Shown here: positions 797-43,769 of the stretch, one piece after another | Numbering within the stretch: the stretch's first letter is position 1 | Layout: each line of letters opens with the position of its first letter | NCBI RefSeq assembly: GCF_040958095.1 | Contig: NC_091230.1 | Coordinates: 5,583,322-5,647,321 of the forward strand | Origin: Procambarus clarkii | Taxonomy: Eukaryota > Arthropoda > Malacostraca > Decapoda > Cambaridae | DNA length: 64,000 nucleotides | Direction of reading: 5' to 3' | Made by a program: the position numbers and the translations under genes | The notes under the pieces: model-generated | Databases searched by the model: none | The model's input: only the letters and a program-made list of their open reading frames with translations | Told to the model about the DNA's origin: nothing

Positions 797-1388
797 TCCT
801 GCAGCATTGGCAACTCATGAGTAACCATCCTGCAGTATTGCTAACCCATGAGTGACCTTCCTGCAATATTTCCAACCCATGAGTGACCTTCCTGCAGTAT
901 TGTTAACCCATGAGTGACCATCCCGCAGTATTGCCAACCCATGAGTGACCGTCCTGCAGTATAGCCAACACATGAGTGACCTTCCTGCAGTATTGTCAAC
1001 TCATGAGTGTCCATCCTGCAGTATAGCCAACACATGAGTGACCTTCCTGCAGTATTGCCAACCCATGAGTGACCATCCTGCAGAATAGCCAACACATAAG
1101 TGACCTTCCTACAGTATTGCCATTCCATGAGTGACCATCCTGCAGTATAGCCAACACATGAGTGACCTTCCTGCAGTATTGCAGACCCATGAGTGACCTT
1201 CCTGACTTATTTCCAACCCCATGAGTGACCTTTCTGCAGTATAGCCAACACATAAGTGACCTTCCCATAGTACTGTCAACCCATGAGTGACCATCCTGGA
1301 GTATTGCCAGCCCATGAGTGACCTTCCCATAGTATTACCAACACATGAGTGACTATCCCACAGTATTGCCAACAAATGAGTGACCTTA
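797..1388. repeat. 31-bp minisatellite, about 19 copies
   Basis: A tandem array in which cctgcagtattg, then ccaacccatg, then agtgacctt recurs every 31 bp. Copies differ by scattered substitutions (ctgcag/ccatag/ccacag; aacccatg/aacacatg). Because 31 is not a multiple of 3, all three frames are cycled and three units equal 31 codons. That explains the repetitive minus-strand open frames (GHSWVGNTAGRSLM-like), which are not proteins. Most copies keep a PstI-type CTGCAG site. Confidence 0.9.
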
Positions 1389-1610
1389 ACATGTGGAATA
1401 CTTGAAAATGTGACCAAAACATTGCTTAATATAAGAACACAACACGAGAGAAGCGCTTGACTCCCTGGAGGCGGGTTGCCACCGCCGACTACAATACAGG
1501 CTGTTGAGCTGTAGTGCTTGGGCTCCTTCCCTGAGCACACATGGACGGAAAACTACCTTACCAACACACTCTGCAACAAATTGCTTTTCTGTCTCCATAT
1601 TTATCATAAG
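1389..1610. other. Unassigned spacer
   Basis: Single-copy-looking sequence between two simple repeats. No coding signal, RNA gene or element terminus was recognised. Confidence 0.4.
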
Positions 1611-1722
1611 AGAGAGAGAGAGAGGGGGGGCAGGGGGGACGGCAGGTAGAGAGTGGGAGAGAGAGAGAGAGAGGGGGGGGGCAGGGGGGATGGCAGATAG
1701 AGAGTGGGAGAGAGAGAGAGAG
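1611..1722. repeat. GA/G-rich compound repeat, two units
   Basis: Two tandem copies, each about 55-65 bp. Each consists of (GA)n, a poly-G run, cagggggg, a short ggcag-tagagagtggg segment and then (GA)n again. Open frames across it on both strands (RERERERGG; SLSLSLS) are low-complexity translations. Confidence 0.85.
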
Positions 1723-2156
1723 AATGAGTTATGGATATGACAGTTGAGTGACCAGGAGTAACAAGGATAAGAGGTGAGTGACCTAGCACAACGTCGTGGT
1801 GCTGAGTGTCTTGATATATACACCCACTAAAATGTATAAAGACAACGGATTACGTTTAAAAATGCAAACAATTATACTTTACAAATTATTCTCACATAAA
1901 TACTAACATCTTTATATTAAAAAACCTTTTACATAATCCTATATATTAATAAGAAAATACATAACCCCGAACACAACAGCCACTACCTAGAGGGATGCAA
2001 AAATACAGTGACAAAATATACAACAATTCATACAATATTGTATACAAGGAGGAAAACACAAAGCCACTAGCCGAGCTTTTATTCTGGTTTAAAATCTTGG
2101 AAAGATTTTTCAGCATATTCCCTTTAAGGATTTAATTGACCGAATTACTACATTAC
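1723..2156. other. AT-rich unassigned region
   Basis: About 430 bp of AT-rich sequence with no recognisable gene, RNA or element end. It runs into the (GT)n tract at its right side. It is the 3' flank of LINE-A copy 1 and may be the original insertion target. Confidence 0.4.
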
Positions 2157-2324
<168 letters not shown>

Positions 2325-5238
2325 CACCTAGTTGTACTCACCTAGTTGTGCTTGCGGGGGTTGAGCTCTGGCTCTTTGGTCCCGCCTCTCAACCGTCAAT
2401 CATCAGGTGTGCAGGTTCCTGAGCCTATTGGGTTCTATCATATCTACACTTGAAACTGTGTATGGAGTCAGCCTCCACCACATCACTTCCTAATGCGTTC
2501 CATTTGTCAACCACTCTGACACTAAAAAAGTTCTTTCTAATATCTCTGTGGCTCATTTGGGCACTCAGTTTCCACCTGTGTCCCCAAGTGCGTGTGCCCC
2601 TTGTGTTAAACAGCCTGTCTTTATCAACCCTGTCGATTCCCTTGAGAATCTTGAATGTGGTGATCATGTCCCCCCCCCCGAACTCTTCTGTCTTCCAACG
2701 AAGTGAGGTTTAATTCCCGTAGTCTCTCCTCGTAGCTCATACCTCTCAGCTCGGGTACTTGTCTGGTGGCAAACCTTTGAACCTTTTCCATTTTAGTCTT
2801 ATACTTGACTAGATATGGACTCCATGCTGGAGCCGCATACTCCAGGATTGGTCTGACATATGTGGTATATAATGTTCTGGAAGATTCCTTACACAAGTTT
2901 CTAAAGGCCGTTCTTACGTTAGCTAACCTGGCATATGCTGCTGCTGTTTTCCTCTTGATATGAGCTTCAGGGGACAGGTCTGGTGTGATATCAACCCCCA
3001 GGTCTTTCTCTCTCTCTGACTCTTGAAGTATTTAATCTTCCAAATGGTACCTTGTATCTGGTCTCCTGCTTCCTACCCCTATCTTCATTACATTACATTT
3101 GCTTGGGTTAAACTTTAACAGTCATTTGTTCGACCATTCCTGCAGCTTGTCCAGGTCTTCTTGAAGCTTCAAGCTGTCCTCCTCTGTCTTAATCCTTCTC
3201 ATAATTTTGGCGTCGTCAGCAAACATTGAGAGGAATGAGTCTATACCCTCTGGGAGATCATTTACGTATATCAGAAACAGGATAGGTCCAAGTACAGAGC
3301 CCTGTGGGACTCCACTGGTGACTTCACGCCAGTCTGAGGTCTCACCCCTCACTGTAACTCTCTGCTTCCTATTATTTAGGTACTCCCTTATCCACAGTAG
3401 TGCCCTACCAGTTACTCCTGCCTGTTTCTCCAGCTTATGCATCAACCTTTTATGGGGTACTGTGTCAAAGGCTTTCCGACAGTCCAAAAAAATGCAGTCC
3501 GCCCACCCTTCTCTTTCGTCTTTAATCTCTGTCACCTGATCGTAGAATTGTATCAAGCCTGTAAGGCAAGATTTACCCTCCCTGTACCCATGTTGATGGG
3601 TTGTCACGAAGTCTCTTCTCTCCAGATGTGTTACTAGGTTTTTTCTCACAATCTTCTCCATCACCTTGCATGGTATGCAAGTTAAGGACACTAGCCTGTA
3701 GTTCAGTGCCTCTTGTCTGTCACCCTTTTTGTATATTGGTACTACATTAGCAGTCTTCCATATTTCTGGTAGGTCCCCCGTTTCCAGTGACCTACTATAC
3801 ACTATGGAGAGTGGTAAGCAGAGCGCTCCTGCACACTCTTTCAATACCCATGCCGAGATTCCGTCAAGCCCAACAGCTTTTCTCACATCCAGCTCCAATA
3901 GGTGCTTCTTGACCTCATCTCTTGTAATTTCGAACCTATCCAATTTCACCTGGTTTGCTGCCACCTCTTCTAGTGCCGTGACATCTCCCTGTTCTATTGT
4001 AAAGACCTCCTGGAACCTTTTGTTGAGTTCTTCACACACCTCTTTGTCATTCTCTGTGTACCTGTCCTCGCCCACCCTAAGTTTCATCACCTGTTCCTTC
4101 ACTGTTGTCTTCCTCCTGATGTGACTGTGTAGTAGCTTTGGTTCGGTCTTGGCTTTATTAGCTATATCATTTTCATACCTTTTCTCAGCTGCTCTTCTCA
4201 CACTGACATACTCGTTCCTGGTTCTCTGGTATCTCTCTCTACTTTCTGGTGTTCTGTTATTACGGAAGTTCCTCCATGCCCTTTTGTTCAGCTCATTTGC
4301 TTTCATACATTCCCTATTAAACCACGGATTCTTCCTTTGCTTCTCTGTTTTTTCCTGTCGGGCTGGGACAAACCTGCTTACATCCTCCTGACATTTTTCG
4401 GTGACATAGTCCATCATGTCTTGTACGGACTTGGTTCCGAGTTCTGTGTCCCAATGTATATCCCATAGGAATTTATTCATTTCCTCATAGTTTCCCTTTC
4501 AGTACACCAGCCCTTTGGTTCCCAGTTCTTTTTTGGGGGTGATAATTCCCAGCTCAACCAGGTACTCAAAGCTCAATACACTATGATCACTCATTCCCGA
4601 GGGGGCTTCCAACTTAACTTCCCTTATATCCGACTCATTTAGGGTAAATATCAGATCAAGCAAGGCTGGTTCATCCCCTCCTCTCATTCTTGTCAGTCCC
4701 TTGACATGTTGACTTAGAAAGTTTCTTGTTGCCACATCCAGCAGCTTAGCTCTCCATGTGTCTGGGCCTCCATGTGGGTCTCTGTTCCCCCAATCTATCT
4801 TCCCATGGTTGAAGTCTCCCATGATTAGAAGTCTGGATCCGTTCCTGCTAGCCACAGAAGGTGCCCTGTCTATTATATTGATGGTGGCCAAGTTGTTTCT
4901 ATCATATTTCTGTCGGGGTCTTCTGTCATTCGGTGGGGGGTTATATATGACTACTATTATAATTTTCTGTCCTCCAGTTGCTATGGTGCCTGATATGTAT
5001 TCACTGAAACCTTCACAGTTCTGAATTACCATCTCTTCGAAACTCCAACCTTCTCTTATTAGCGAAGCTACACCACCTCCTCCTCTCCCTTCTCCCTCTC
5101 TTTCCTCACTACATAGTAGCCCTGTGGAAACACTGTGTTTGTTATGATTTTCGTTAGCTTTGTTTCTGTGAGTGCTATTATGTCTGGGTTTTCTTCTGTT
5201 GCCCATTCTCCAAGTTCACTTGTTTTATTTGAAATCCC
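2325..5238 (-). mobile_element. LINE-A copy 1, 5'-truncated non-LTR retrotransposon
   Basis: The element reads right to left. It begins inside the endonuclease domain near 5238, runs through RT and the C-terminal domain, and ends in a conserved 3' UTR next to (GT)n. The 3' UTR words (actcacctagttgtg; ttgagctctggctctttgg; tcaatca) recur at every other LINE-A copy in the window. RT and C-terminal sequence resemble the CR1/L2 group of the Jockey superfamily; the clade is inferred from motif memory, not a tree. Truncation joins it abruptly to sequence containing gtgtgtgtctgtgag. Confidence 0.9.
2425..5238 (-). pseudogene. LINE-A ORF2 (endonuclease-RT), broken
   Basis: The order of domains on the minus strand is endonuclease (ALTETK at the start, GDFNHGKIDW, then MSDHSVL with the catalytic DH), RT ([12 protein letters not shown] motif [11 protein letters not shown] motif B, MFADDAKI motif C) and the C-terminal domain (YVRPILEYAAPAWSPY; YEERLRELNL; GHRWKLSAQMSHRDIR). 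Comparison with sister copies shows stops replacing Arg near 4497 (GLVY*KGNYEE), Trp near 3120 (SNK*LL) and a codon near 3032. There is also a frameshift in a run of about ten Cs near 2670. The endonuclease lacks its first residues (YTNIDG region). The copy cannot make a full protein. Confidence 0.9.
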
Positions 5239-5361
5239 AAATGTGTGTGTCTGTGAGTAGTAAGGATGACGACGTATGAGCCTCATTGGATTTTGGCCAA
5301 ATGAGACGCACACGTCGTCAGGGTTTTCACCGATTTTTGGCAAATGAGGCGCACACGTCGT
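5239..5361. repeat. 43-bp direct duplication beside the palindrome end
   Basis: The words caaatgag-cgcacacgtcgtcagggttttca occur twice, starting at 5298 and 5341, exactly 43 bp apart. The second copy runs into the left end of the large palindrome, so its terminal word CAGGGTTTTCA appears at both 5319 and 5362. Only the second copy has a mirror partner on the right side. Confidence 0.75.
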
Positions 5362-5850
5362 CAGGGTTTTCAGGCGAATTTGGACAGACACAGATTTGGA
5401 ATTAAGGAATTCTTATGATGAAGTAATTTCTGAGATTTTAGAATTTTATTAAAAGTTCTTATGATGAAAATAATGTCATACCAGTTTGATAAGAGTTCTT
5501 ATGGGAGAAATTCAATTTTTTTCAGAGTTCCTACCGATAATAAACAGATATTTAGGACATATACATTTAAGTAGGATTCTTACTTAGAAACTAGTATATG
5601 TCTATATAACTGAATCATTACCCTGCCATCCCCCTCCCCCTTCCCTCCCAACCCCCCTGCATCTCCTGCTCCTACCTCACACCCCCTCCCCTCCATACTC
5701 CTGCGTCACCTGTGTTTACTTTACACCGCCAGCCAGACGCCCTGGGTCAAGTCACCTCCGTAATCTTATCTTATCTTATCATTGTGTCTCCGTAATATCT
5801 GGACCAACCCTCTCCTTTTCATTAAACTATTCAGTTTTACACAAATAAAT
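5362..5850. repeat. Left arm, outer segment
   Basis: Outermost part of the left arm, mirrored at about 14770-15268. It contains two versions of aagagttcttatg-type text, a C-rich tract (5625-5700, mirrored as a G-rich tract near 14930-15010) and tcttatcttatcttatc. No gene. Confidence 0.75.
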
Positions 5851-6720
5851 CGTGTTAGTAAGCAAGTTCTAGCTCCTGTCCCCCGCCTTAGTTTATCCTT
5901 GTATCTTCTTTACTAACAGTCCAATCCCTCTAAAATTTTAGATATTCATATTTCAAATGTAGTTCAATACATTAATTTAGTTACCGAGCTCCAGCTCTTG
6001 TCCTCCACCTTAGTTCCCTCGCACATCTTCGTTATTAACCCATTATTTTCATGAAATTTAAACCCACCATACTTCTAACTGAGGAAGTAAAGATAACACA
6101 TTTACCAAACTCTAGCTCTTGTCCTCTGCCTTAGCTCTCTCTCGTATCTTTGTTAATACATAATCAAATTCCCTGAATTTTTAACGCTCTGTATTTCAGA
6201 CACAGTAAATAAGATCTAGTCCATTACCGAGCTCCAGCTCTCATCCCCCACCTTACTTCCCTCTCTGTCTTCGGTAATATCCTATCAAATTCCCTGAAAT
6301 TTATACCCTCTGTATTTCAGACATAGTAAATAGGACCCAAACAATTATGAAACTCTAGCTCTTGTCCCCCAGCCTTAGTTCATTTGTACAAGTTCTTTAG
6401 TAACAGACCAATTTTCCCAAAATTTAAAGCAGACATACTTCAAAGTTAGTAAATCAAATCAAAACAGTTAACGAGCTCCAGCTCTCATCCCCCACCTTAG
6501 TTCTCTCTCGTATCTTTGTAAATAACCCATCAATTTTCCTGAAATTTTTACCATAGTTGTTTCAGACCTAGTAAATAAAGTCAGTATAGTTACCGAGTTT
6601 TCAACTCTTGTTCCTCGCTTAGTTCATTTGTACAAGTTCTTTATTATCCAACTAAATCACCTGAGTTTTAAGATCATCATATTTCTAACGTAGTAAAATT
6701 ATTCAGGACATTAGCTCCAT
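5850..6720. repeat. 121-bp satellite, left arm
   Basis: Copies marked by agctc(c/t)agctcttgtcc begin near 5866, 5987, 6109, 6231, 6352, 6474 and 6596, a steady period of about 121-122 bp. Alternate copies carry gagctcc and aactcta starts, so there is a dimeric period of about 243 bp. Each unit also has a gaaatttaaacc-like block and a tatttcagacatagtaaat-like block. The same satellite is mirrored in the right arm with more copies. Confidence 0.85.
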
Positions 6721-6821
6721 TTCCACTGCCCTAGATCATCAAACATAAATATTTCCAATCAAGTCCCTTTCCAGCCTAACTCTTTATCAGAGTAATCACC
6801 TAACCCTAACCTGCGTAATTA

Positions 6822-6823
<2 letters not shown>

Positions 6824-6869
<46 letters not shown>

Positions 6870-6934
6870 AGATATATACAAGAGTTGTTACATTCTTGTA
6901 CAGCCACTAGTACGCATAGCGTTTCGGGCAAGAT
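6824..6934 (-). mobile_element. Small poly(A)-tailed retroposon, left arm only
   Basis: A run of 45 Ts (6824-6868) is followed by about 66 bp ending in cgtttcgggcaagat. On the minus strand this reads as a short element with a poly(A) tail (ttgcccgaaacgctatgcg, then agtggct and tatatatctc before the A run). The right arm near 13510-13525 has the uninterrupted flanks (ggcggga-ggggtg joined to aaaagataattacgc), so this block is an insertion into the left arm only. I see no clear target duplication and the family is not recognised with certainty. Confidence 0.7.
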
Positions 6935-7900
6935 CACCCCTCCCGCCTTCCTCCATCTCATCCAAGTCTCACAAATTTAAATGTAACTGTTAATTTGCTT
7001 TCTTTCCCCGTTCATAGCATATTCTCTGTAAGTTCTGACCAGTACTTAGTCTTACATAATCTCTAGTTCTTTTCATTTTATACAAGACTTAAACAACTAT
7101 TACTATGCATCCTATCATATTTTAACATGACTCAAATGTAAATATACCCAACTTCTTCCATCCATTACAAGTCCCAGCATGTTCGCCTTGCATCTCACTA
7201 CGCTTTCTACTTTACATATTCTTGCATGTATTCCTCACATCGCAGCACCGACGCTTACAATCTCTCTCAATCCTTTACACGTTCGCACATGTTCTCAGCC
7301 TAACGTTAACAATTTTCCTCCATTCCTCCACTACATGTTCTTACCCGTTCATTACAATCCCTTACATGTTCTCTGTACAAGTTTTATACTCAGTATTCAT
7401 GTTCACTGTATTCATTAACTTTTCCCACATGTTTTCTATGTTCTTTACCATGTTCCCCATATTTTCTCTGCGATCATTCCCTTACATGTTATTTAACGCT
7501 CCTTAACTAAAATCTTTGGCCAATCAACTAAAACATGGACACTTTCGTCATTTCTCAGCTAAACTTATTATACAATCAACTAAAAATAGGCAGGATTAGC
7601 CTCGTTCAACGCCGTTCTTAACTAAAATAACTTTCTCTTAGCTAAAAATTGTCAAAGGAAACTTTCCAACACTATTCATAACTAACTTTATCCATCGTCA
7701 ATCAACTAAAAAAAAATCACTTTCATCATTTCTTAACTTAACTTAACCAACATTTATACTTTGTGGAGCACTAATATAGTCACTGTCATCATATTTTTTA
7801 TGTCTTTCCTCAACTAAAAATAGTCAAATGTAACTTCATTCAGCACTTTTGTAACTAAAATTATATGTCGTTAAGTAAGAAATATAGTCAAAGACACTCT
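6935..7900. repeat. Left arm, middle segment
   Basis: Contains many tacatgttc/acatgttc words (7170-7495) and then repeated atcaactaaaa, ttaactaaaa and catttct words (7500-7880). It is mirrored at about 12200-13500. Short frames starting MFALHLT occur in both arms but lose register with each other, so I regard them as by-products of repeat composition. Confidence 0.65.
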
Positions 7901-8500
7901 TCAAGATGCCAAAGACACTAAAACACTCCAAAAATTTACTCGCATCCTCAAAGTTATTCTCAGAGTCATCAAAAAGTTAATCTCAATCATCAAATGTTAT
8001 TCTCTAAGTAACCTTTCGTTCATCAGAGAAGCTTTCTAAGACATCTTCGTTCATCAAAGTTATTCTCAGAGCTATCAAAAAGTTAATCTCAGTCATCAAA
8101 AGGTACTTTTATGTCATCAAAGGTAATCCCAGAGTCATCAACGTTATTCTCAAAGTCATCTAGGTTATTCTCAGTCATCAAAGTTATTCTCTTAGACATC
8201 AATGTGGTTCTCAGAGATATCTAAAGTTATTCTCAGAGTCATCAAAGCTATTTTCAGTGTCATCAAAAGGTAATCTCTAACTCACTTTCGTTCATCAAAG
8301 TTAATATTAGAGTCGTCAAAGGTAATCTCTAACTCACTTTTGTTCATCATTGTTATTCTCTAAGTCACCTTCGTTCATCAATGTTGTTCTCTAAGTCACC
8401 TTCATTCATCAAAGAAACTCTACTTCTTCCAACAAGTTGTTCTTTAAGACATAAATGTTGTTCTCTAAGACATCATCAGTCATAAAAAAATTCTCCAAAT
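7900..8500. repeat. TCATCAAAG-type satellite, left arm
   Basis: Irregular short tandem repeat built of tcatcaaagttattctcagag and tcatcaatgttgttctctaagtc-like words, roughly 25-35 bp per unit. Mirrored at about 11200-12180, where the array is several hundred bp longer. Confidence 0.8.
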
Positions 8501-8589
8501 GTAACTAGTTCAACTTTTCATATGAAACCTGCACTTCTGTTAAAATATATTTTCTTAGACACTTTACCTTTTAAAACTGTTCTCTGTAC

Positions 8590-9745
8590 AACACTGCTTA
8601 AACCTACCTAACCTATCCTCTCCACCCAATGTTACTTAATAACCATAACGTTCCTAAACCTATCCTAACTTTACCTATCCTAACTAACCCTAACCTAACT
8701 TACCTAACCTAACTTAACCTATCCTCACCTAACCTAACCTAACTTAACTAACCTAATCTAACTTACCTTACCTTACCTAACCTAACTTAACCTAACCTAA
8801 CCTATCTTACCTAACCTAACTTACCTATCCTAACTTACCTATCCTAACTTAACTTGCATAACATAACCTGACCTAACCTAACTTACATATCATAACCTAA
8901 CTTACCTATCCTAACTTAACTAACCTAACATAACTTACCTTACCTAACCTAACTTAACCTGACCCCATTTACCTTACCATACCTTACCTATCCTAACTTA
9001 ACTAACCTATCTTACCTATCCAAACCTAACCTAACCTAACTTACCTTACCTACCAATCCTAACTTAACGTAAATTACCTAACTTAACCTAACCTAACTTG
9101 CATAACCTAACCTAACTTGCATAACCTAACCTAACTTACCTATTCTAACTTAACTAACTTAGCATAACTTGCCTTACCTAACTTGCATAACCTAACCTAA
9201 CTTACCTATCCTAACTTAACTAACCTAACATAACTTACCTTGCCTAACGTAACCTACCTTACCTTACCTTACCTTACCTTACCTACCCTAACTTAACTAA
9301 CATAACCTAACTTACCTTACCTAACATAACCTAACTAACCTATCCTAACTTAACTAACCTAACCTAACATAACTTGCATAACCTAACCTAACTTAACCTA
9401 ACCTATCCAATCCTAACTTACCTTACCTAACCTACCTTACCTAACCTAACTTAACTTAAATTACTTAACTTAACCTATCCTAACTTAACCTAACTTACCT
9501 ATCCTAACTTAACTCACCTAACCTAACTTAACTTGCATAACCTAACCTAACTTAACCAACCTAACCTAACTTACCTAACCTGGCTTACATAATCTAACCT
9601 AACCTAACTAACCTAACCTAACTTACATATCCTAACTTATCTAACCTATCCTTAACTAACTTAACGTAACCTAACCTAACTTAACTTGCATAACCTAAAT
9701 TAACGTAACCTAACTTAAAGTAAATTACCTAACTTAACCTTACAT
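8590..9745. repeat. Degenerate CCTAA (telomere-like) array, left arm
   Basis: Over 1.1 kb of cctaac, ttacct and cctaactta words in varied order. The composition is that of the arthropod telomere repeat (CCTAA on this strand) mixed with variant pentamers such as TTACC and TAACT. It is far too degenerate to be a functional telomere. It is mirrored by the TTAGG array at 10150-11075. Confidence 0.9.
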
Positions 9746-9805
9746 TCCCAAACTGATGTATCCTAACTTATCTAGGCCAACCAGACATGACCTAACTTAC
9801 ATATG

Positions 9806-10146
9806 ATAAGAACATATGATAAAACCTAATAAATACACTAAGATTACAAGAGGTTAGGTTAAAGGATGGAAGAATAGGAGCAATTATTACAAACATAATA
9901 AATACAACTTATGAGCAACTCGATGAACTTTAACAAATAACCCTTGAAATGTAAAAAATGACCATTTGAGAAATTAACCCTTGAAATGAGTAAATGCCCA
10001 TATATAACAAAAATCCTTTGAAATGCTTAAATACCGAATCTTTAACAAATAACCCTAGAAAAGCAAAAATGACCATTTGAGTAAATATCAATTGAAACGA
10101 ACAAATGCATATGAGACATTGATTGACGAAAGACAAGAAGGAATAA
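9806..10146. other. Palindrome loop with a 112-bp internal duplication
   Basis: Non-mirrored AT-rich spacer between the two arms. The block tttaacaaataaccct followed by aaaatgaccatttgag occurs at 9929 and again at 10041, so the loop contains an imperfect tandem duplication of about 112 bp. The phrase cccttgaaatg recurs in between. A 68-aa minus-strand frame crosses it but has no recognisable feature. Confidence 0.65.
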
Positions 10147-10149
10147 TTA

Positions 10150-11075
10150 TGTAAGTTAGGTCATGTCTGGTTAGCCTAGATAAGTTAGGATACATCAGTT
10201 TGGGTATGTAAGGTTAAGTTAGGCAATTTACTTTAAGTTAGGTTACGTTAATTTAGGTTATGCAAGTTAAGTTAGGTTAGGTTAGGTTAAGTTAGGTAAG
10301 GATAGGTTAGCTAAGTTAGGATATGTAAGTTAGGTTAGGTTAGGTTATGTATGCTAGGTTAGGTAAGTTAGGTTAAGTTAGATTAGGTTGAGTAAGTTAG
10401 GTTAGGTTATGCAAGTTAAGTTAGGTTAGGTGAGTTAAGTTAGGATAGGTAAGTTAGGTTAAGTTAAATAATTTAAGTTAAGTTAGGTTAGGTAAGGTAA
10501 GGTAAGGTAGGTTAGGTAAGGTAAGGTATGTTAGGTAAGGTAAGTTAGGATAGGTTAGGTTAGGTTAAGTTAGGTTAGGTTAGGTTATGCAAGATAGGTT
10601 AGGTTAAGTTAGGTAATTTACGTTAAATTAGGATAGGTATGTAAGGTAAGTTAGGTTAGGTTTGGATAGGTAAGATAGGTTAGTTAAGTTAGGATAGGCA
10701 AGGTATGGTAAGGTGAGTTAGGTTAGGTTAAGTTAGGTTAGGTAAGGTAAGTTATGTTAGGTTAGTTAAGTTAGGATAGGTAAGTTAGGTTATGATATGT
10801 AAGTTAGGTTAGGTCAGGTTATGTTATGCAAGTTAAGTTAGGATAGGTAAGTTAGGATAGGTATGTTAGGTTAGGTAAGATAGGTTAGGTTAAGTTAGGT
10901 TAGGATAAGTTAGGGTAGGTAAGGTAAGGTAAGTTAGATTAGGTTAGTTAAGTTAGGTTAGGTTAAGTTAGGATAGGTTAAGTTAGGTTAGGTAAGTTAG
11001 GTTAGGGTTAGTTAGAATAGGTAAAGTTAGGATAGGTTTAGGAACATTATGTTAACTAAGTAACATTGGGTGGAG
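10150..11075. repeat. Degenerate TTAGG (telomere-like) array, right arm
   Basis: Mirror image of the left array, now ttagg-rich on the plus strand with aagttagg, ggtaagg and ataggt variants. It is about 230 bp shorter than the left copy. The G-rich strand reads outward, away from the palindrome centre, in both arms. Confidence 0.9.
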
Positions 11076-11199
11076 AGGATAGGTTAGGTAGGTTTAAGCA
11101 GTGTTGTACAGAGAACTTAAAAGGTAAAGTGTTTAAGAAAATATATTTTAACAGAAGTGCAGGTTTCATATGAAAAGTTGAACTAGTTACATTTGGAGA

Positions 11200-12180
11200 G
11201 AATTTTTTATGACTGATGATGTCTTAGAGAACAACATTGATGTCTTAAAGAACAACTCGTTGGAAGAAATAGAGTTTCTTTGATGAACGAAGGTGACTTA
11301 GAGAACAACATTGATGAACGAAGGTGACTTAGAGAATAACATTGATGAACAAAAGTGAGTTAGAGATTACCTTTGACGACTCTAAGATTAACTTTGATGA
11401 ACGAAAGTGAGTTAGAGATTACCTTTGATGAAACTGAAAATAGCTTTGATGACTCTGAGAATAACATTAGATATCTCTGAGAACAACATTGATGTCCTAG
11501 AGAATAACTTTGATGACTCTGAGAATAACCTTGATGACTCTGAGAATAACGTTGATGACTCTGGGATTACCTTTGATGACATAAAAGTTCCTTTTGATGA
11601 CTGAGAATAACTTTTTGATAGCTCTGAGAATAACTTTGATGAACGAAGACATCTTAGAGAGCTTCTCTGATGAACGAAAGGTTACTTAGAGAATAACTTT
11701 TGATGTTTAGAGAATGACTATGATGAACGAAAGTGAGTTAGAGATTACCTCTGTTGACTCTGAGAATATCTTTGATGACTGAGAATGACTTTTGAGAACA
11801 TGAGTAGTATTATTTGATAGCTCAGAGAATAACTTTTGATGAGATAGAGAAGAACTTTATGTTTTAGAGAACAAGTTTGATGACTTAGAGAATAACTTTG
11901 ATGACTCTGAGAATAACCTTGATGACTCTGAGAATAACGTTGATGACTCTGAGATTACCTTTGATGACTCTGAGAATAACTTTTGGTAGCTCTGAGAATA
12001 ACTTTAGATGTCTCTGAGAATAACTTTTACAGATAAAGATGCCTGAGATTAACTTTGAGGACGTGTGTAGTATTTGACGATTTTGAGTGTGTCTTTCAAT
12101 GTGTCATTGATGTATCGAAGAGTGTCTTTGATTTCTCGAAGAGTAACTTTGGTGTCACAGAGAGTGTCTTTGACTATATT
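11200..12180. repeat. GATGA-type satellite, right arm
   Basis: Repeated gatgactctgagaataac and gatgaacgaaagtgagttagag units, complementary to the left-arm TCATCAAAG satellite. The array is clearly expanded relative to the left arm. A 63-aa plus-strand frame near 12055 is a repeat translation. Confidence 0.8.
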
Positions 12181-13700
12181 TCTTACTTAACGACATATAA
12201 TTTTTTTAAGAAAGTGCTGAAAGAAGTTACATATGACTATTTTTAGTTGAGGAAAGACATGAAAAATATGATGACAGTGACTATTTTAGTGCTCCACAAA
12301 GTATAAATGTCAGTTAAGAACAGCGATGATAGATATCTTTGGCTATTTTTTCTTACTTGACGACATAATTTTAGTTACGAAAGTGCTGAAAGAAGTTTCC
12401 TTGACTATTTTTAGCGAAGTGAAAGGTTACTTTAGTTAAGAACAGTGTTGGAAAGAGGCTACATTTGACTATTTTCAGTTGAGAGAAATGATATTTTAGT
12501 TAAGAAATGACAGGGAAACATGATGAAAGTAACTATTTTTAGTTGACTGATGAATACTTTTAGTTAAAACAAAATGACAAAACATGATGAACATGGTTTT
12601 TCTGTTAATTGGCGGATAATTTTAGATAAGAAATGACAATGAAACATGATGAACATGGCTATTTTCTGTTGACTGGGGAATAAGTTTAGTTAAGAAATGA
12701 TGAAAGTGATTATTTTTTAGTTGATTGACGATGGATAAAGTTAGTTATGAACAGTGTTGGAAAGTTTCCTTTGACAATTTTTAGCTAAGAGAAAGGTATT
12801 TTAGTTAAGAACGGTGTTGAACGAGGCTAATCCTGCCTATTTTCTAGTCGATTGGATAATAAGTTTAGTTGAGAAATGACGAAAGTGACTATGTTTTTAG
12901 TTGATTGACGAATGATTTTAATTAAGGAACGTTAAGAAAAGAATGTTTTGGTACATTCGATTTTTAAAGAATATGGCGAACATAGAGAACATATGGGGAA
13001 CATGGCAAAGAACATAGAAAACATGTAAGAAAAGTTAATGAATACAGTGAACATGAATACTGAGTATAAAAGTTGAACAGAGAACATGTAAGGGACTGTA
13101 ATGAACGGGTAAGAACATGTAGTGGAGGAATGAAGGAAAATTGTAAACGTTAGGCTGAGAACATGTAAAGGATTAAGAAAGATTGTATGCATCGGTACTA
13201 AGATGTGCGGAACACATGCAAGAACATGTAAAGTAGAAAGCATAGTGAGATGCAAGGCGAACATGCTGGGACTTGTAATGGATGGAAGGAGTTGGGTATA
13301 TTTACATATGAGTCATGTTAAAATATGATAGGATGCATAGTAATAGTCGGTTAAGTCTTGTATAAAATGGAAAGAACTAGAGAATATGTAAGACTAAGTA
13401 CTGGTCAGAACTTACAGAGAATATGCTATGAACGGGGAAAGAAAGCAAATTAACAGTTACATTTAAATTTATAAGACTCGGATGAGATGGAGGAAGGCGG
13501 GAGGGGTGAAAAGATAATTACGCAGGTTGGAGTTAGGCGATTACTTTGATAAAGAGCTAGGCTGGAAAGGGACTTGATCGGAAATATTTATGTTTGATGA
13601 TCTAGGGCAGTGGAAATGGAGCTAATGTCCTGATTAATTTCACTACGTTAGAAATATGATGATCTTAAATCTCAGGTGATTTAGTTGGATAATAAAGAAC
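12180..13700. repeat. Right arm, middle segment
   Basis: Mirror of the left middle segment: ttagttaagaaatgac and tgactatttttagttga words (12200-12920), then gaacatgtaa words (12950-13270), then sequence shared with 6650-7150. The poly(T) retroposon of the left arm is absent here. Confidence 0.65.
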
Positions 13701-14765
13701 TTGTACAAATGAACTAAGCGAGGAACAAGAGTTGAAAACTCGTTAACTGAACTGGCTTTTATTTACTATGTCTGAAACAACTATGGTAAACATTTCAGGA
13801 AAATTGATGGGTTATTTACAAAGATACGAGAGAGAACTAAGGTGGGGGATGAGAGCTGGAGCTCGTTAACTGTTTTGATTTGATTTACTAACTTTGAAGT
13901 ATGTCTGCTTTAAATTTCGGGAAAATTGGTCTGTTACTCTAGAACTTGTACAAATGAACTAAGGCTGGGGGACAAGAGCTAGAGTTTCATAATTGTCCGG
14001 ATCCTATTTACTATGTCTAAAATACAGAGGGTATAAATTTCAGGGAATTTGATAAGATATTACCAAAGACAGGGAGGGAAGTAAGGTGGGGGATGAGAGC
14101 TGGAGCTCGGTAATGGACTTGATCTTATTTACTGTATCTGAAATACAGAGGGTTAAAATTTCAGGGAATTTAATTAGGTATTAACGAAGATTCGAGAGAG
14201 AGCTAAGGCGGAGGACAAGAGCTAGAGTTTGGTAAATGTGTTATCTTTACTTTCTCAGTTAGAAGTATGGTGGGTTTAAATTTCATGAAAAAATAATGGG
14301 TTAATAACGAAGATGTGCGAGTAAACTAAGGTGGAGGACATGAGCTGGAGCTCAGTAACTAAATTACTGTATTGAACTACGTTTGAAATATGAATATCTA
14401 AAATTTTGGAGGGATTGGACTGTTAGTAAAGAAGTTACGGGGATAAACTAATGCGGGGACAGGAGCTAGAACTTGCTTACTATCACGATTTATTTACTAC
14501 ATACAAATTATGGCTGTTTTTTAAATTTTAGGGGGATTGGTTAGGTATTAACGAGGATTTGAGGGGGAACTACGGCAGGGGACAGGAGCTGGAGCTCGAT
14601 AACTAAATTATTGTATTTTAATACGTTTGAAATAGCTGTGTTTTAAATCTCGAAGAAAATGATTGGATACTAAAGAAGATGTATTAGTAAAACTAAGGCG
14701 GGAACGTGAGCTAGACCCTGCTTACTGACTTTGTTTATTTGTGTAAAACTGACTAGTTTAATGAA
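13700..14765. repeat. 121-bp satellite, right arm
   Basis: Complement of the left-arm satellite. Units marked by gagctggagctcg or gagctagag(t/c)tt occur near 13735, 13855, 13975, 14097, 14219, 14342, 14464, 14587 and 14709. That is nine recognisable copies against seven on the left, with the same alternation of two unit types. Confidence 0.85.
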
Positions 14766-15268
14766 AAGGAACAAACATTACGATGTACGGAATTATAAAT
14801 GAACAATATGAAGGAGAGGGACGGTTCAGATATTACAGAGACACAATGATAAGATAAGATAAGATTACGGAGGTGACTTGACTCAGGGCGTCTGGCTGGC
14901 GGTGTAAAGTAAACACAGGTGATGCAGGGGTAGGGAGGGAAGGGGGTGTGAGGTAGGAGCAGGAGATGCAGGGGGGGTTGGGAGGGAAGGGGGGAGGGGG
15001 ATGGCAGGGTAATGATTCAGTTATATAGTCATATACTAGTTTCTAAGTAAGAATCCTACTTAAAAGTATACAGCCTAAATATCTGTTTATTATCGGTAGG
15101 AGCTCTGAAAAAAATTGAATTTCACCAATAAGAACTCTTAACAAACTTGTATGAACTTATTTTCATCATAAGAACTTTTAACAAACTTCTAAAGTCTCGG
15201 AAATTACTTTTCTCATAAGAATTCATTAATTCCAAATCTGTGACTAGCCAAATTCACCTGAAAACCCT
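14765..15268. repeat. Right arm, outer segment
   Basis: Mirror of 5362-5850. It includes the gataagataagataag word, a G-rich tract and ccaaatctgtgactagcc, and ends at ccctg (15268). Confidence 0.75.
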
Positions 15269-15320
15269 GGCAGTCTAAAAAGGAATTTCCAAAAAAATAA
15301 AAATTCCCGTTTAGACTGCC
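15269..15320. repeat. 52-bp hairpin, possible tiny MITE remnant
   Basis: A 20-bp stem (15269-15288 with 15301-15320, ggcagtctaaa...aattt) with two mismatches flanks a 12-nt A-rich loop. It sits exactly outside the right end of the palindrome. No equivalent is present at the left end. Confidence 0.75.
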
Positions 15321-15333
15321 ATCCCTACTACTT

Positions 15334-15988
15334 GTGTGTGTGTGTGTGTACTCACCTATTTGTACTCACCTATTTGTGCTTGCGGGGGTTGAGCTTTGGC
15401 TCTTTGGTCCCTCCTCTCAACTGTCAATCAACTGGTGTACAGGTTCTATCATATCTACATTTAAAACTGTGTATGGAGTCAGCCTCCACCACATCACTGC
15501 CTAATGCATTCCATCTGTTAACTACTCTGACACTGAGATAAGATTAACTGACTCTGACACGTAAGTTCCTTCTTACGTCCCTGTGGCTCATGTGGGTACT
15601 CAGTTTCCACCTGTGTCCCCTTGTTCGCATCCCGCTAGTGTTGAATAGTTTATCCTTGTTTACCCGGTAGATTCCCCTGATGATTTTGTAGGTTGTGATC
15701 ATGTCCCCCCTTACTCTTCTGTCTTCCAGTGTTGTAATGTGCATTTCCCGCAGCCTTTCCTCATAACTCATGCCTCTTAGTTCTGGGACTAGTCTAGTAG
15801 CATACCTTTGGACTTTTTCCAGCTTCGTCTTGTGCTTGACAAGGTACGGGCTCCACGCTGGGGCCGCATACTCCAGGATTAGTCGTACATATGTGGTGTA
15901 CAAGATTCTGAATGATTCCTTACACAGGTTCCTGAACGCTGTTCTGATGTTAGCCAGCCTCGCATATGCCGCAGACGTTATTCTTTAA
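15334..15988 (-). mobile_element. LINE-A copy 2, 3' fragment
   Basis: A short (GT)n tail (15334-15349) is followed by the LINE-A 3' UTR and about 450 bp of ORF2 C-terminus (TTYVRLILEYAAPAWSPY, SYEERLREMHITTLEDRRVRGDMITTYKI, RGHRWKLSTHMSHRDVR). There is a small local duplication near 15525-15560 (actctgacac twice) that breaks the frame. The fragment ends where the next (GT)n tract begins. Confidence 0.9.
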
Positions 15989-21516: not shown

Positions 21517-24500
21517 TAATACTAGTAGTGCTGGTACTGTTAGTAGTGCTGGTACTACTAGTAGTGCTGGTACTACTAGTAGTGCTGGTACTGCGGGCAG
21601 TGCTGGTACTGTTAGTAGTGCTGATACTATTAGCAGTGCTGGTACTACTAGTAGTGCTGGTGCTGCTGGTAGTGCTGGTACTGCTAGTAGTGCTGGTACT
21701 GCTGGTAGTGCTGGTACTGTTTTTTAGTGCTGGTACTACTAGAAGTGCTGGAATTACTAGTAATGCTGGTATTGCAAGTATTGCTGGTACTACTAATAGA
21801 GCTGGTACTGCTGGTAGTGCTGGTACTGCTAGTAGTGTTGGTACTGCTAGTAGTGCTGGTACTACTAGTAACGCTGGTACTACTAGTAATGCTGGTACTG
21901 GCAGTAGTGTTGGCACTACAAGTAGTGCTGTACTGCCAGTAGTGCTAGTACTACTATTCGTGCTGGTACTGTTAGTAGTGCTGGTACTACTAGTAGTGCT
22001 GGTACTACAAGTAGTGCTGGTACTTCCAGTAGTGCTGGTACTACCAGTAGTGCTGGTATTACCAGTAGTGCTGGTACTACAAGTAGTGCTGGTACTGCCA
22101 GTAGTGCCGAAACTACCAGTAATTCTGGTTCCACCAGTAGTGCTGGTACTGATATTGGTGCTGGTACTGCTAGTAGTGCTGGTACTGCTAGTAGTGCTGG
22201 TACTACTGGTAGTGCTGGTACTGTTAGTAGTGCTGGAACTACTACCAGTGCTGGTACTGCTAGTAGTGCTGGTACTACTAGTAGTGCTGGTACTGCTGGT
22301 AGTGCTGGTACTGTTAGTAGTGCTGGTACTACTAGTAGTGCTGGTACTGCTGGTAGTGCTGGTAGTGCTGACACTGTTTGAAGTGCGGGTACTACTAGTA
22401 GTGCTGGTATTACTAGTAGTGCTGGTACTGCTAGTAGTGTTGGTACTACTAGTAGTGCTGGTACTGCTAGTAGTGCTGGTACTACTAGTAGTGCTGGTAC
22501 TGCTAGTTGTGCTGGTACTCCTAGTAGTGTTGGTACTACTAGTTGTGCTGGTACTACTAGTTGTGCTGGTAATAGTAGTAGAGCTGGTAATGCTAGTAGT
22601 GTTGGTACTGCTAGTAGTGCTGGTACTGCTAGTAGTGCTGGTACTACTAGTTGTGCTGGTACTACTAGTAGTGCTGGTACTAGTAGTAGAGCTGGTAATG
22701 CTAGTAGTGTTGGTACTGCTAGTAGTGCTGGTACTGCTAGTAGTGCTGGATCTACTAGTAGTGCTGGTATTGCTAGTAGTGCTGGTACTACTAGTAATGC
22801 TGGAACTGCCAGTATTGCTGGTACTACAGGTAGTGCTGGTACTACTAGTAGTACTGGTACTACAAGTAGTACTGGTACTACTAGTATTGCTGATATTACA
22901 AGTAGTGCTGGTACTACCTGTAGTGCTAGTACTACTATTAGTACTGGTATTGATAGTAGTGCTGGTACTACTAGCAGTGCTGGTACTGATAGTATTACTG
23001 GTACTGCTAATAGTGCTGATACTACTAATGGAGCTGGTACTGATAGTATTGCTGGTACTACTAGTAGTGTTGGTACTACAAGTAGTGCTGTACTGCCAAA
23101 AGTCCTGGTACTACTACTATTAGTGCTGGTACTGCTAGTAGTGCTGGTACTGCAAGTAGTGCTGGTACTACCAGTAATGGTGGTACTACAAGTAGTGCTG
23201 TACTGCCAAAAGTCCTGGTACTACTACTATTAGTGCTGGTACTACTAGTAGTGCTGGTACTGCAAATAGTGCTGGTACTGCCAGTAATGGTGGTACTACC
23301 AGTAGTGCTGGTACTACAAGTAGTGCTGGTACTACTAGTATTGCTGGTACTACAAGTAGTGCTGGTACTGCCAGTAGTACTGGTTCTACCAGTAGTGATG
23401 ATACTGCTAGTAGTGCTGGTACTGCGGGCAGTGCTGGTACTGTTAGTAGTGCTGATACTATTAGCAGTGCTGGTACTACTAGTAGTGCTGGTACTGCTGG
23501 TAGTGCTGGTACTGCTAGTAGTGCTGGTACTGCTGGCAGTGCTGGTACTGTTTTTAGTGTTGGTACTGCTAGTAGTGCTGGTATTACTAGTAATGCTGGT
23601 ATTGCAAGTATTGCTGATACTACTAATAGAGCTGGTACTGCTGGTAGTGCTGGTACTGCTAGTAGTGTTGGTACTGCTAGTAGTGCTGGTACTACTAGTA
23701 GCGCTGGTACTACTACTGATGCTGGTACTGACAATAGTGCTGGTACTACAAGTAGTGCGGGTACTACAAGTAGTGCTGGTTCTGCCAGTAATGCTGGTAC
23801 TACAAGTAATACTAGTACTACAAGTAGTGCTGGTACTACCAGTAGTGCTGGTTCTACCAGTAGTTCTAATACTGCCAGTAATGCTGGTTCCCCCAGTAGT
23901 GCTAGTAATACCAGTAGTGCTGGTACTGCTATTAGTGCTAGTATTGCTAGTAGTGCTGGTACTGCTAGTAGTGCTGGTACTACTAGTAGTGCTGGTACTG
24001 CTGGTAGTGCTGGTACTGTTAGTAGTGCTGGTACTACTACCAGTGCTGGTACTACTAGTAGTACTGGTACTGCTGGTAGTGCTGGTAGTGCTGGTAGTGC
24101 TGGTACTGTTTGAAGTGCTGGTACTACTAGTAGTGCTGGTATTACCAGTAGTGCTGGTACTGTTAGTAGTGTTGGTACTACTAGTAGTGCTGGTACTGCT
24201 AGTAATACTGGTACTACTAGTAGTTCTGATACTGCTAGTAGTGCTGTTGCTCCTATTAGTGCTGGTACTACTCGTTGTGCTGGTACTAGTAGTAGAGCTG
24301 GTAATGCTAGTAGTGCTGGTACTGCTAGTAGTGCTGGTACTGCTAGTAGTGCTGGATCTTCTTGTAGTGCTGGTATTGCTAGTAGTGCTGGTGCTACTAG
24401 TAATGCTGGTACTGTCAGTATTGCTGGTACTACAAGTAGTGCTGGTAAGACTAGTAGCGCTGATACTACAAGTAGTGCTGGTACTGCCAGTAATAGTGGT

Positions 24501-25211
24501 ACTACCAGTAGTACTGGTACTACAGGTAGTGCTGGTACTACTAGTAGTGCTGGTACTACAAGTGGTGCTGGTACTACTAGTAGTGCTGGTACTACAAGTA
24601 GCGCTGGTATTGCCACTAGTGCTGGTACTACTAGTAGTGCTGGTACTACAAGTAGCGCTGGTATTGCCACTAGTGCTGGTACTACTAGTAGTGCTGGTAC
24701 TACCAGTAGTCCTGATAGTGCCAGTAATGCAGGTTCTAGCAGTAGTGCTGGTAGTACCAGTAGTGCTGGTACTGCTAGTAGTGCTGGTACTGCTGGTAGT
24801 GCTGGTACTGCTAGTTGTGCTGGTACTGCTAGTAGTGCTGGTACTGCTGGTAGTGCTGGTACTGCTAGTTGTGCTGGTACTGCAAGTTGTGCTGATACTG
24901 CTAGTAGTGCTGGTACTGCTAGTAGTGCTGGTGCTATTAGTAGTGCTAGTACTGCTAGTAGTGCTGGTGCTACTAGTAACGCTGGTACTGGCAGTAGTTC
25001 TGGTTCTACAAGTAGTGCTGGTACTATTAGTAGTGCTAGTACTACTAGTAGTGCTGCTACTGCCAGTAGTGCTGGTACTACAAGTAGTGCTGGTACTACT
25101 AGTAGTGCTGGTACTACTAGTAATGCTGGTACTGGCAGTAGTGCTGGTACTACAAGTAGTGCTGGTACTACTAGTAGTGCTGGAATTACAAGTAGTGCTG
25201 AACTGCCTGTA

Positions 25212-28200
25212 GTGTTGGTACTACTAGTAGTGCTAGTAATACAATTAGTGCTGGTACTGCCAGTAATGCTGGTACTACCAGTAATGCTGGTACTACAAGC
25301 AGTGCTGGTACTACTAGTAGTGCTGGTACTACAAGTAGTGCTGGTGCTGCCAGTAGTGCTGGTTCTGCCAGTAATGCTGGTACTACCAGTAATGCTGGTA
25401 CTACAAGTAGTGCTGGTACTACTAGTAGTGCTGGTACTACAAGTAGTGCTGGTACTACCAGTAGGGCTGTTACTACCAGTAGTGCTGGTACTACAAGTAG
25501 TGCTGGTACTATTAGTAGTGCTGGTACTACCAGTAATGCTGGTACTACAAGTAGTGCTGGTACTGCCAGTAGTGCTGGTACTGCCAGTAGTGCTGGTACT
25601 ACCAGTAGTGCTGGTACTACCTGTAGTGCTGGTATTACTAGTAGTACTGGTATTGATAGTAGTGCTGGTATTAATAGTAGTGCTTGTACTGATAGTATTA
25701 CTGGTACTGCTAATAGTGCTGATACTAATAATAGTGCTGGTACTGATAGTATTGATGGTACTGCTAGTAGTGCTAGTACTACAAGTAGTGCTGTACTGCC
25801 AAAAGTCCTGGTACTACTACTATTAGTGCTGGTACTACTAGTAGTGCTGGTACTACTAGTAGTGCTGGAATTACAAGTAGTGCTGGTACTGCCAGTAATG
25901 CTGGTACTACCAGTAGTGCTGGTACTACCAGTAGTGATGATACTGCCAGTAATGCTGGTACTACCAGTAGTGCTGGTACTACAAGTAGTGCTGGTTCTAC
26001 CAGTAGTGCTGACACTACCAGTAGTGCTAGTACTGCTACTAGTGCTGGTACTGCTAGTAGTGCTGGTACTGCTACTAGTGCTGGTACTGCCAGTTGTGCT
26101 AGTACTGCTAGTAGTGCTGGTACTACTAGTAGTGCTGGTACTACTAGTAGTGCTGGTACTGTTATTAGTGCTTTTACTACTAGTAGTGCTGGTACTGCTG
26201 GCAGTGCTGGTACTGTTAGTAGTGCTGATACTATTAGCAGTGCTGGTACTACTAGTAGTGCTGGTACTGCTAGTAGTGCTGGTACTGCTGGTACTGTTTT
26301 TAGTGCTGGTACTACTAGTAGTGCTGGTATTACTAGTAATGCTGGTATTGCAAGCATTGCTGGTACTACTAATAGAGCTGGTACTGCTGGTAGTGCTGGT
26401 ACTGCTAGTAGTGTTGGTACTACTAGTAGTGCTGGTACTGCTAGTAGTGCTGGTACTACTAGTAGTGCTGGTACTGCTAGTTGTGCTGGTACTCCTAGTA
26501 GTGCTGGTACTACTAGTTGTGCTGGTACTAGTAGTACAGCTGGTAATGCTAGTAGTGTTGGTACTGCTAGTAGTGCTGGTACTGCTAGTAGTCCTGGATC
26601 TACTAGTAGTGCTGGTATTGCTAGTAGTGCTGGTATTACTAGTAATGCTGGAACTGCCAGTATTGCTGGTACTACAGGTAGTGCTGGTACTACTAGTAGT
26701 ACTGGTACTACAAGTAGTACTGGTACTACTAGATTTGCTGATATTACAAGTAGTGCTGGTACTACCAGTAGTGCTAGTACTACTATTAGAACTGGTATTG
26801 ATAGTAGTGCTGGTACTACTAGGAGTGCTGGTACTGATAGTATTACTGGTACTGCTAATAGTGCTGATACTACTAATAGAGCTGGTACTGATAGTATTGC
26901 TGGTACTACTAGTAGTGCGTAGTGCAGGTACTACAAGTAGTGCTGTACTGCCAAAAGTCCTGGTACTACTACTATTAGTGCTGGTACTGCTAGTAGTGCT
27001 GGTACTGCAAGTAGTGCTGGTACTGCCAGTAATGGTGGTACTACCAGTAGTGCTGGTACTACAAGTAGTGCTGGTACTACTAGTATTGCTGGTACTACAA
27101 GTAGTGCTGGTACTGCCAGTAGTACTGGTACTACCAGTAGTGATGATACTGCCAGTAGTGCTGGTACTACCTGTAGTGTTGATACTACCAGTAGTGCTGG
27201 TACTACCAGTAGTGCTGGTAGTACTAGTAGTGCTGGTACTACTAGTAGTGCTGGTAATACTAGTAGTGCTGGTACTGTTATTAGTGCTTTTACTACAAGT
27301 AGTGCTGGTACTGCGGGCAGTGCTGGTACTGTTAGTAGTGCTGATACTATTAGCAGTGCTGGTACTAATAGTAGTGCTAGTACTGCTGGTAGTGCTGGTA
27401 CTGCTAGTAGTGCTGGTACTACTAGTAGTGCTGGTATTACTAGTAATGCTGGTATTGCAAGTATTGGTGGTACTACTAATAGAGCTGGTACTGCTGGTAG
27501 TGCTGGTACTGCTAGTAGTGTTGGTACTGCTAGTAGTGCTGGTACTACTAGTAGCGCTGGTACTACTACTGATGCTGGTACTGGCAGTAGTGCTGGTACT
27601 ACAAGTAGTGCTGGTACTACATGTAGTGCTGGTACTACAAGTAGTGCTGGTACTACATGTAGTGCTGGTACTACAAGTAGTGCTGGTACTACAAGTAGTG
27701 CTGGTACTACTAGTAGTGCTGGTACTACAAGTAGCACTGGTATTGCCACTAGTGCTGGTACTACTAGTAGTGCTGGTACTACCAGTAGTCCTGATAGTGC
27801 CAGTAATGCAGGTTCTAGCAGTAGTGCTGGTAGTACCAGTAGTGCTGGTACTGCTAGTAGTGCTGGTACTGCTGGTAGTGCTGGTACTGCTAGATGTGCT
27901 GGTACTGCTAGTAGTGCTGGTACTGCTGGTAGTGCTGGTACTGCTAGTTGTGCTGGTACTGCAAGTTGAGATGATACTGCTAGTAGTGCTGGTACTGCTA
28001 GTAGTGCTGGTGCTATTAGTATTGCTAGTACTGCTAGTAGTGCTGGTGCTACTAGTAACGCTGGTACTGGCAGTAGTTCTGGTTCTACAAGTAGTGCTGG
28101 TACTATTAGTAGTGCTAGTACTACTAGTAGTGCTGTTACTGCCAGTAGTGCTGGTACTACAAGTAGTGCTGGTACTACTAGTAGTGCTGGTACTACTAGT

Positions 28201-28290
28201 AATGCTGGTACTGGCAGTAGTGCTGGTACTACAAGTAGTGCTGGTACTACTAGTAGTGCTGGAATTACAAGTAGTGCTGTACTGCCTGTA
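25212..28290. repeat. Higher-order repeat block, first clear copy
   Basis: The segment starting at 25212 recurs at 28291 (offset 3079). Both begin with equal-length, nearly identical 204-residue repeat frames and reach the same gccaaaagtcc junction. Confidence 0.75.
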
Positions 28291-41878: not shown

Positions 41879-42021
<143 letters not shown>

Positions 42022-43766: not shown

Positions 43767-43769
43767 TAC

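Follow-up and report, generated by a model that had tools for sequence, protein, structure and literature searches.

A gene-less palindromic repeat of Procambarus clarkii as a probable foldback derivative of Maverick/Polinton transposons

Introduction

Mavericks, also called Polintons, are regarded as integrated virus-like elements. A protein-primed virus, adenovirus 12, gives rise to symmetric recombinant (SYREC) DNA, a palindromic defective genome that keeps the terminal origin. SYREC DNA occurs in virus stocks, whereas the palindrome described here is a dispersed genomic repeat: it occupies 10,077 bp of a 64,000-nt stretch of the 4.03-Gb genome of the crayfish Procambarus clarkii (C81:5583322-5647321; this whole stretch is called the window below). 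We consider it very probable that this element is a gene-less, non-autonomous foldback derivative of Maverick/Polinton, presumably mobilised in trans by Maverick proteins.

Conserved Polinton proteins include a protein-primed polymerase B, an rve integrase and an FtsK-like ATPase (PMC4028283, cited from extracts, as are the other papers below). In vertebrate Mavericks, 5'-(AGT)2//(ACT)2-3' ends, which are suited to jumping-back replication, are common, and intact elements have 6-bp duplications (Barreat and Katzourakis 2021, PMC8097293). The window element shares such ends, a 6-bp duplication and inverted repeats with this vertebrate set, and a coding copy in the crayfish genome likewise has a protein-primed-type polymerase, a packaging-type ATPase and an rve integrase. 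Unlike vertebrate Mavericks, the window element has no long open reading frame (ORF) and consists of satellites arranged as an almost complete palindrome; neither "hairpin" nor "palindrom" occurs in the main text of PMC8097293. Galileo/Foldback elements likewise have very long inverted repeats, which may hold tandem repeats, as well as copies without a coding segment, but they make 7-8 bp duplications and use a P-superfamily transposase (PMC4168063), whereas 6-bp duplications and Maverick ends are found here. The snapback genomes of adeno-associated virus are also self-complementary and helper-dependent and keep their terminal signals, but this virus is a parvovirus with another replication chemistry, and the report concerns packaged virus DNA rather than dispersed genomic copies (PMC8235507). 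The Tlr elements of Tetrahymena were once suggested to be a non-autonomous Polinton derivative, for which PMC4028283 argues ancient divergence instead, and a crayfish satellite survey assigned 0.01% of reads to Maverick in two species (PMC13130569). In open-licence titles and abstract starts we met no description of a palindromic, hairpin, snapback or non-autonomous Polinton or Maverick, and set phrases for non-autonomous or miniature Polintons/Mavericks were absent from the open-licence literature, outside which Repbase reports may lie; novelty is therefore provisional.

Results

A dispersed family with Maverick-type ends

Alignment with other copies, which agree on the boundary AGTAGTARGGATG, placed the ends of the window element at 5256 and 15332. 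The element is bounded by AGTAGT from 5256 and ACTACT to 15332, that is, by terminal (AGT)2...(ACT)2. A sequence-only reading had put the ends at 5362 and 15268; the true ends lie 106 bp (left) and 64 bp (right) farther out, and the shared CAGGGTTTTCAGG that it took for the terminus sits just inside the terminal hairpin. Each end is laid out as AGTAGTAGGGATG, the hairpin and GTTTTCAGG. The strict pattern AGTAGTAGGGATGN{48,78}GTTTTCAGG had 379+414 = 793 exact matches in the genome (at least one end counted twice), many of them in inverted pairs, and the reversed-pattern control had 0. The terminal 239 bp of the window element gave at least 49 matches (40 scored of 2,304 candidate places), including its own two ends; the others were 86-93% identical, several as inverted pairs 5-24 kb apart. 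A search for further copies with the same ends had been proposed by the sequence-only reading, and its suggestion of a foldback or non-autonomous family is borne out by these copies, by their 6-bp target duplications and by a coding relative; its alternative of a unique inverted duplication is rejected in view of the many dispersed copies.

Target duplications were scored from the 6 bases on either side of 14 of 15 end pairs; C9a has no right end motif. Perfect 6/6 duplications flanked eight of the 14 pairs, comprising five distinct foldback sites plus one duplicate and two Maverick pairs. The foldback duplications were ACAACT (C40), CTCCTG (C19a), CCCCAC (C51a), AACCGG (C2:21626653) and GTGGGT (C1:9093390 and its duplicate C1:9914137), and the Maverick-type ones were TTGAGG (C19b) and GGTTAG (C2:16688914). 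The window element has a 5/6 match, and so do C9b and C51b, which represent one ancestral site. Related palindromes are dispersed genome-wide, several of them with perfect 6-bp target duplications.

The comparison set consisted of 20 stretches from eleven regions, nine of which hold foldback sequence; the other two, C19b and C19c, match the window element near its end only. Six long foldback copies were covered wholly or nearly (C19a, C51a, C9b, C51b, C21 and C9a). The window blocks are mirrored on both sides in the first five of these, C9b with large insertions; C9a has a shortened right arm and a displaced centre. Inverted colinear arm blocks were present in all eight foldback copies compared, the window included, over 883-4,390 aligned bp. 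The central segment of the window element recurs in 6/6 other long copies and at one further foldback-labelled end (L045); it is absent from the short C40, from the partly fetched C6 and C37 and from all loci labelled Maverick. A search with this segment gave at least 50 matches (40 scored of 1,023 candidates), and in C51a, C9b and C51b it is itself doubled as two inverted copies. Foldback sizes were 10.1 kb (window), 11.7-12.4 kb (C1 pairs) and 5.7-5.8 kb (C2), with longer ones also present; a size limit set by packaging is possible. As a separate observation, two long foldback copies on different contigs (L016/L018 and L022/L023) have matching minisatellite flanks in opposite orientation, and it seems that a satellite block was duplicated between places together with its foldback insertion.

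A coding Maverick with the same ends

Behind the first 30 places with the motif, which include several segmental duplicates, lay foldback satellite arms in 17 cases, a Maverick interior in 11 and neither in two. One region, C19b (L019-L021, on C19), has both ends, the same as those of the window element, and encloses genes; long parts of C19c are 98-99% identical to it, and C19c has no end motif at its fetched end. Three of the eight C19b ORF pieces matched Pfam families, namely DNA_pol_B_2 (1.5e-11), Pox_A32 (3.6e-8) and rve (5.3e-8). The other five had no Pfam match at 0.01, among them L020:6121-6780 and L021:2487-2942, which were examined for jelly-roll capsid proteins and protease with Pfam as the one library. 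A coding relative is thus present, with an integrase, polymerase and ATPase of Maverick type. The comparison with FB/Galileo made in the sequence-only reading does not extend to kinship: the ends, the duplications of 6 bp and the proteins encoded by this relative are all of the Maverick/Polinton kind. We also read one ORF inside C19b as retrotransposon-like.

In a search with the integrase, all 128 scored places (the best of 4,727 candidates, including the query and its C19c copy) matched at 93% or more, 124 of them stop-free; C81:5471935, one of these places, is some 110 kb away from the window. A very numerous Maverick family, young as judged by its intact frames, therefore shares the genome with the palindromes. 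At least 128 near-identical integrase frames among 4,727 candidate places represent an unusually large Maverick expansion. Among the 30 end pairs, two enclose an integrase (14 places listed on C1, C2 and C4), both being 13.3 kb long, and the Maverick-labelled pair C2:16688914 spans 19.7 kb. In collections that barely cover animal genomes, and so carry little weight here, the end pattern had no match and the Maverick ATPase no confirmed match in viral contigs, and the integrase had no match in phage records.

A tree was built from 41 terminal stretches, of which 29 were labelled foldback and 9 Maverick, while 3 were unlabelled. On it the foldback/Maverick label has to change four times, and well-supported branches force at least two of these changes. 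Of the 30 loci with the motif, nine had no anchor and were omitted, and one of 42 extracted rows was identical to another. The label was clustered, with a mean of 8.2 changes after shuffling and 0/500 shuffles as low as four. Hence, foldback and Maverick ends are clustered but do not form two sides of one split. Together with the shared central segment, this mixed tree suggests one founding palindrome whose ends may later have been exchanged with several Maverick subfamilies.

Structure of the window element

The annotated features of the window element are as follows.

5256..15332, no strand: whole element, very probably a non-autonomous palindromic (foldback) Maverick derivative (comparison with other copies; ORF scan)
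5250..5255, + strand: left target-site duplication TCTGTG, 5/6 match, within a TG-rich stretch (flank comparison)
15333..15338, + strand: right target-site duplication TGTGTG (flank comparison)
5256..5268, + strand: left end motif AGTAGTAAGGATG, (AGT)2 type (copy comparison; Maverick end motif in PMC8097293)
15320..15332, - strand: right end motif AGTAGTAGGGATG (copy comparison)
5268..5319, + strand: left terminal hairpin, stem GACGACG...CGTCGTC, -13.9 kcal/mol as DNA (folding)
15269..15320, - strand: right terminal hairpin, stem GGCAGTCTAAA...TTTAGACTGCC, unlike the left stem, -15.8 kcal/mol (folding)
5320..5374, + strand: extra unit inside the left hairpin, AGGGTTTTCACC...ACACGTCGTC then AGGGTTTTCAGG, repeating the 3' arm of the hairpin (sequence; similar units in other ends)
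14733..15271, - strand: terminal stretch common to the coding Maverick copy (L019 and L021 ends), 84-90% in four aligned pieces (alignment)
5843..6827, + strand: left arm block holding the 121-bp satellite, identity with its mirror 94.8% (repeats; self-comparison)
13509..14495, - strand: right block with the 121-bp satellite (repeats; self-comparison)
6828..6933, + strand: left-arm-only insertion, poly-T 6824-6868 plus about 65 bp, SINE-like (short interspersed element) by appearance (repeats; self-comparison)
7950..8412, + strand: left TCATCAAAG-type satellite (tandem-repeat scan)
11217..12155, - strand: right TCATCAAAG-type satellite (tandem-repeat scan)
8657..9740, + strand: left telomere-like AACCT array, degenerate (tandem-repeat scan)
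10213..11038, - strand: right telomere-like array, TTAGG on the + strand (tandem-repeat scan)
9806..10146, + strand: central segment (loop), about 340 bp, found in six other long copies (alignment)

Inverted self-comparison returned colinear arm blocks (E = 0.0 throughout) at 5843-6827 against 13509-14495 (94.8%), 6934-7745 against 12681-13509 (89.5%) and 7975-9540 against 10147-11719 (88.6%), with an outer part at 5362-6697 against 13884-15269 (74.7%); in the arm-to-arm comparison, identity across aligned blocks was 90.5%. Both arms carry, from outside inwards, the 121-bp satellite, a 21/31/52-bp TCATCAAAG-type satellite and an AACCT/TTAGG-type array. The order of the three mirrored satellites and the central loop of about 340 bp are as the sequence-only reading had described them; its telomere-like array is present as well, but degenerate, the longest perfect run being three units in either arm. 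The arms make up most of the element, which is a foldback in the loose sense of having long inverted arms of tandem repeats. The left arm alone holds a 45-base poly-T and an insertion of about 65 bp, ending at 6933. The palindrome was confirmed as real: with arms differing by 5-25% and an insertion in one of them, a mirror image made by assembly is very unlikely.

Three ORFs of at least 90 aa overlap the element, the longest having 110 aa. The set of an autonomous Maverick (pPolB, rve integrase, ATPase) is missing, no ORF in 5256-15332 exceeding 110 aa. Several copies (L016, L022 and L023) share with the window element (12932-13264, - strand) an open frame of 110-161 aa that lies where the arms are rich in ACATGT; it is probably a by-product of a degenerate short repeat. 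An origin of the palindrome by telomere fusion was considered and rejected: the G-strands point away from the centre, whereas a head-to-head fusion would give the reverse orientation, and both arrays are degenerate.

Arm likeness within and between copies

In the seven foldback copies with both arms, within-copy arm identity was 93.0 (window), 95.3, 81.4, 96.4, 92.3, 93.7 and 93.9%, and thus 92.3-96.4% in six of seven. Between copies, 111 of 113 arm pairs (at least 800 bp aligned) had a mean identity of 82.3% (range 73.1-93.2); the two highest values came from C9b against C51b, which have a common insertion site. These results indicate that the arms evolve together in part.

A sequence-variable terminal hairpin

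Inside the end motif, the letters of the stem vary strongly while self-pairing is mostly kept, and stems of this sort occur on foldback ends as well as on Maverick ends. Pairing was no requirement of the pattern by which the ends were collected, and the hairpin was assessed by gapped comparison and folding; an ungapped position-by-position pairing count was weak, near the shuffled level at many positions, because many stems have an offset. For 69 distinct arm pairs from 93 ends, the arm-arm score was 11.51 compared with a mean of 6.16 for shuffled partners (standard deviation 0.37, maximum 6.94, 50 shuffles), and the own partner was best or co-best in 19/69 and among the top five in 36/69. Folding 22 stem classes (differing by at least 4 of 18 letters) as DNA gave a native mean of -13.7 kcal/mol versus -6.3 for chimeras with the 3' half of another class. 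The native stem was lower in energy in 21/22 classes, and 6/22 were weaker than -8 kcal/mol. Moreover, both ends of one element carry the same stem in 24/30 pairs (shuffled mean 2.8, maximum 9 in 1,000 shuffles). Kinship among copies inflates these statistics, but near-perfect stems with few common letters are hard to explain by relatedness.

We tentatively suggest, and with more doubt than confidence, that the hairpin may be a lock recognised by its shape, or a key specific to the element and kept matched at both ends, with the palindrome as a self-templating defective genome. In protein-primed replication or integration of Mavericks, the hairpin would then serve as an end signal defined by its structure and variable in sequence. 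The element would be a settled genome of the defective-interfering type, derived from an endogenous virus-like transposon; its strand would fold into a full-length duplex, so that one origin would suffice, and the arms would be copied anew in each cycle. Alternatively, the pairing may be mutational in origin, template switching within the hairpin perfecting quasi-palindromes with no function needed. In the open-licence literature searched we met no description of a sequence-variable, structure-defined terminus for Mavericks.

The ends L009-L058 also carry, inside the hairpin, units of about 40 bp, each made of an arm-like variable stretch and a AGGGTTTTCAGG-like motif, 1 to 10 being scored per end in 45 distinct ends. 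The idea that they form a chronological archive, with the 5' arm closest to the outermost unit, was unsupported: in the 25 ends with at least two units, the outermost was strictly best in 8, tied in 10 and surpassed by an inner one in 7.

Discussion

Maverick-type ends, 6-bp duplications and a coding copy with the same ends argue for a Maverick derivative and against a P-type foldback. In the mechanism we propose, the Maverick terminal protein/polymerase would recognise the (AGT)2 end and copy the palindrome by protein-primed replication, and the Maverick integrase would insert the copy. The palindrome itself may have arisen when the polymerase snapped back on the displaced strand, a step towards which we lean only slightly. 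As a palindromic single strand presumably folds into a duplex hairpin, a copying cycle could rewrite one arm from the other, each cycle again; the satellites would be filler expanded by slippage, and the element would behave as a defective, helper-dependent genome of a virus-like transposon. Any role of the satellites, telomere-like arrays and hairpin is putative only.

Several observations weigh against this interpretation. The window duplication matches at 5/6 only and lies inside a simple repeat, and three of the 14 end pairs fail as duplications: C1:1180581 scores 0 as counted and reaches 6/6 (ACTGAC) only when (AGT)3 is taken as its left end, whereas a score of 2 was obtained for C2:20262897 and for its duplicate C2:21546935, the flanks of both being satellite in opposite orientation. 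The arms of C51a are only 81.4% alike, and those of C9a and C40 align over only 991 and 883 bp. When partners are ranked by the number of identical bases, only 5 of the 14 arms with a mate in the set are best matched by that mate, as aligned lengths differ and copies are mosaics, and the best match of each window arm is a C51b arm. The two ends of the window element carry different hairpins; with the 5/6 duplication and the foreign best arm partner, this marks the window copy as a mosaic. The same ends were shown on integrase copies only for C19b and two end pairs, and comparison of the arms with the coding copy gave no similarity beyond about 0.5 kb from the ends, so that no fragment proves descent from one Maverick. 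For mobilisation in trans, the evidence consists of the shared ends and duplications. The arrangement at C2:20262897 and C2:21546935, a 5.7-5.8-kb end pair between inverted rather than direct satellite, was thus seen twice.

The strongest rival keeps the same family and helper and competes with the snapback part alone. The palindrome may have grown in the way of Galileo, without any snapback: in a Maverick with an internal deletion, the inverted ends would have become longer by recruiting internal sequence, by unequal exchange and by expansion of tandem repeats. Galileo inverted repeats do lengthen through tandem repeats and recruited sequence (PMC4168063), the window arms are mostly tandem repeats, and the doubled central segment of C51a, C9b and C51b fits such growth. 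However, one central segment common to 6/6 other long copies, and arm interiors without similarity to the coding copy, fit a single founding palindrome better than repeated lengthening, and slippage alone does not keep two arms alike; we regard this route as rather unlikely.

A classical foldback with a P, Mutator or hAT type transposase, its Maverick-like ends acquired by chance or capture, would account for the overall FB/Galileo-like shape. It is very improbable given 6-bp duplications here against 7-8 bp in Galileo (PMC4168063), the Maverick interior bordered by the same terminal motif in 11/30 ends, and a terminal-stretch tree that, though the label is clustered, does not part foldback from Maverick ends. 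A chromosomal inverted duplication or an assembly artefact is scarcely credible, since, although palindromes are a known assembly hazard and some copies are clearly duplicates (C1:9093390 and C1:9914137 have common flanks), the copies are dispersed at unrelated sites with perfect short duplications, and the two arms are set apart by point changes, indels and an insertion confined to one of them.

Helper-dependent Maverick parasites seem little documented. A very large Maverick family, dispersed gene-less palindromes with the same ends and a covarying hairpin make up a natural data set on the replication and integration of protein-primed elements and on the defective genomes to which they give rise, which also bears on the spread of satellite and telomere-like repeats by a transposon.

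Other repeats in the window

Outside the element, a 15.3-kb array of the 18-bp satellite TACTAGTAGTGCTGGTAC occupies 21520-36806, with about 848 units and a 9-bp sub-periodicity. A 5.2-kb direct repeat at about 42006-50794 (95.4% identity, 3.6-kb offset) represents a tandem duplication, and further copies of it at 84-90% were found within 36.9-64 kb, the part compared.

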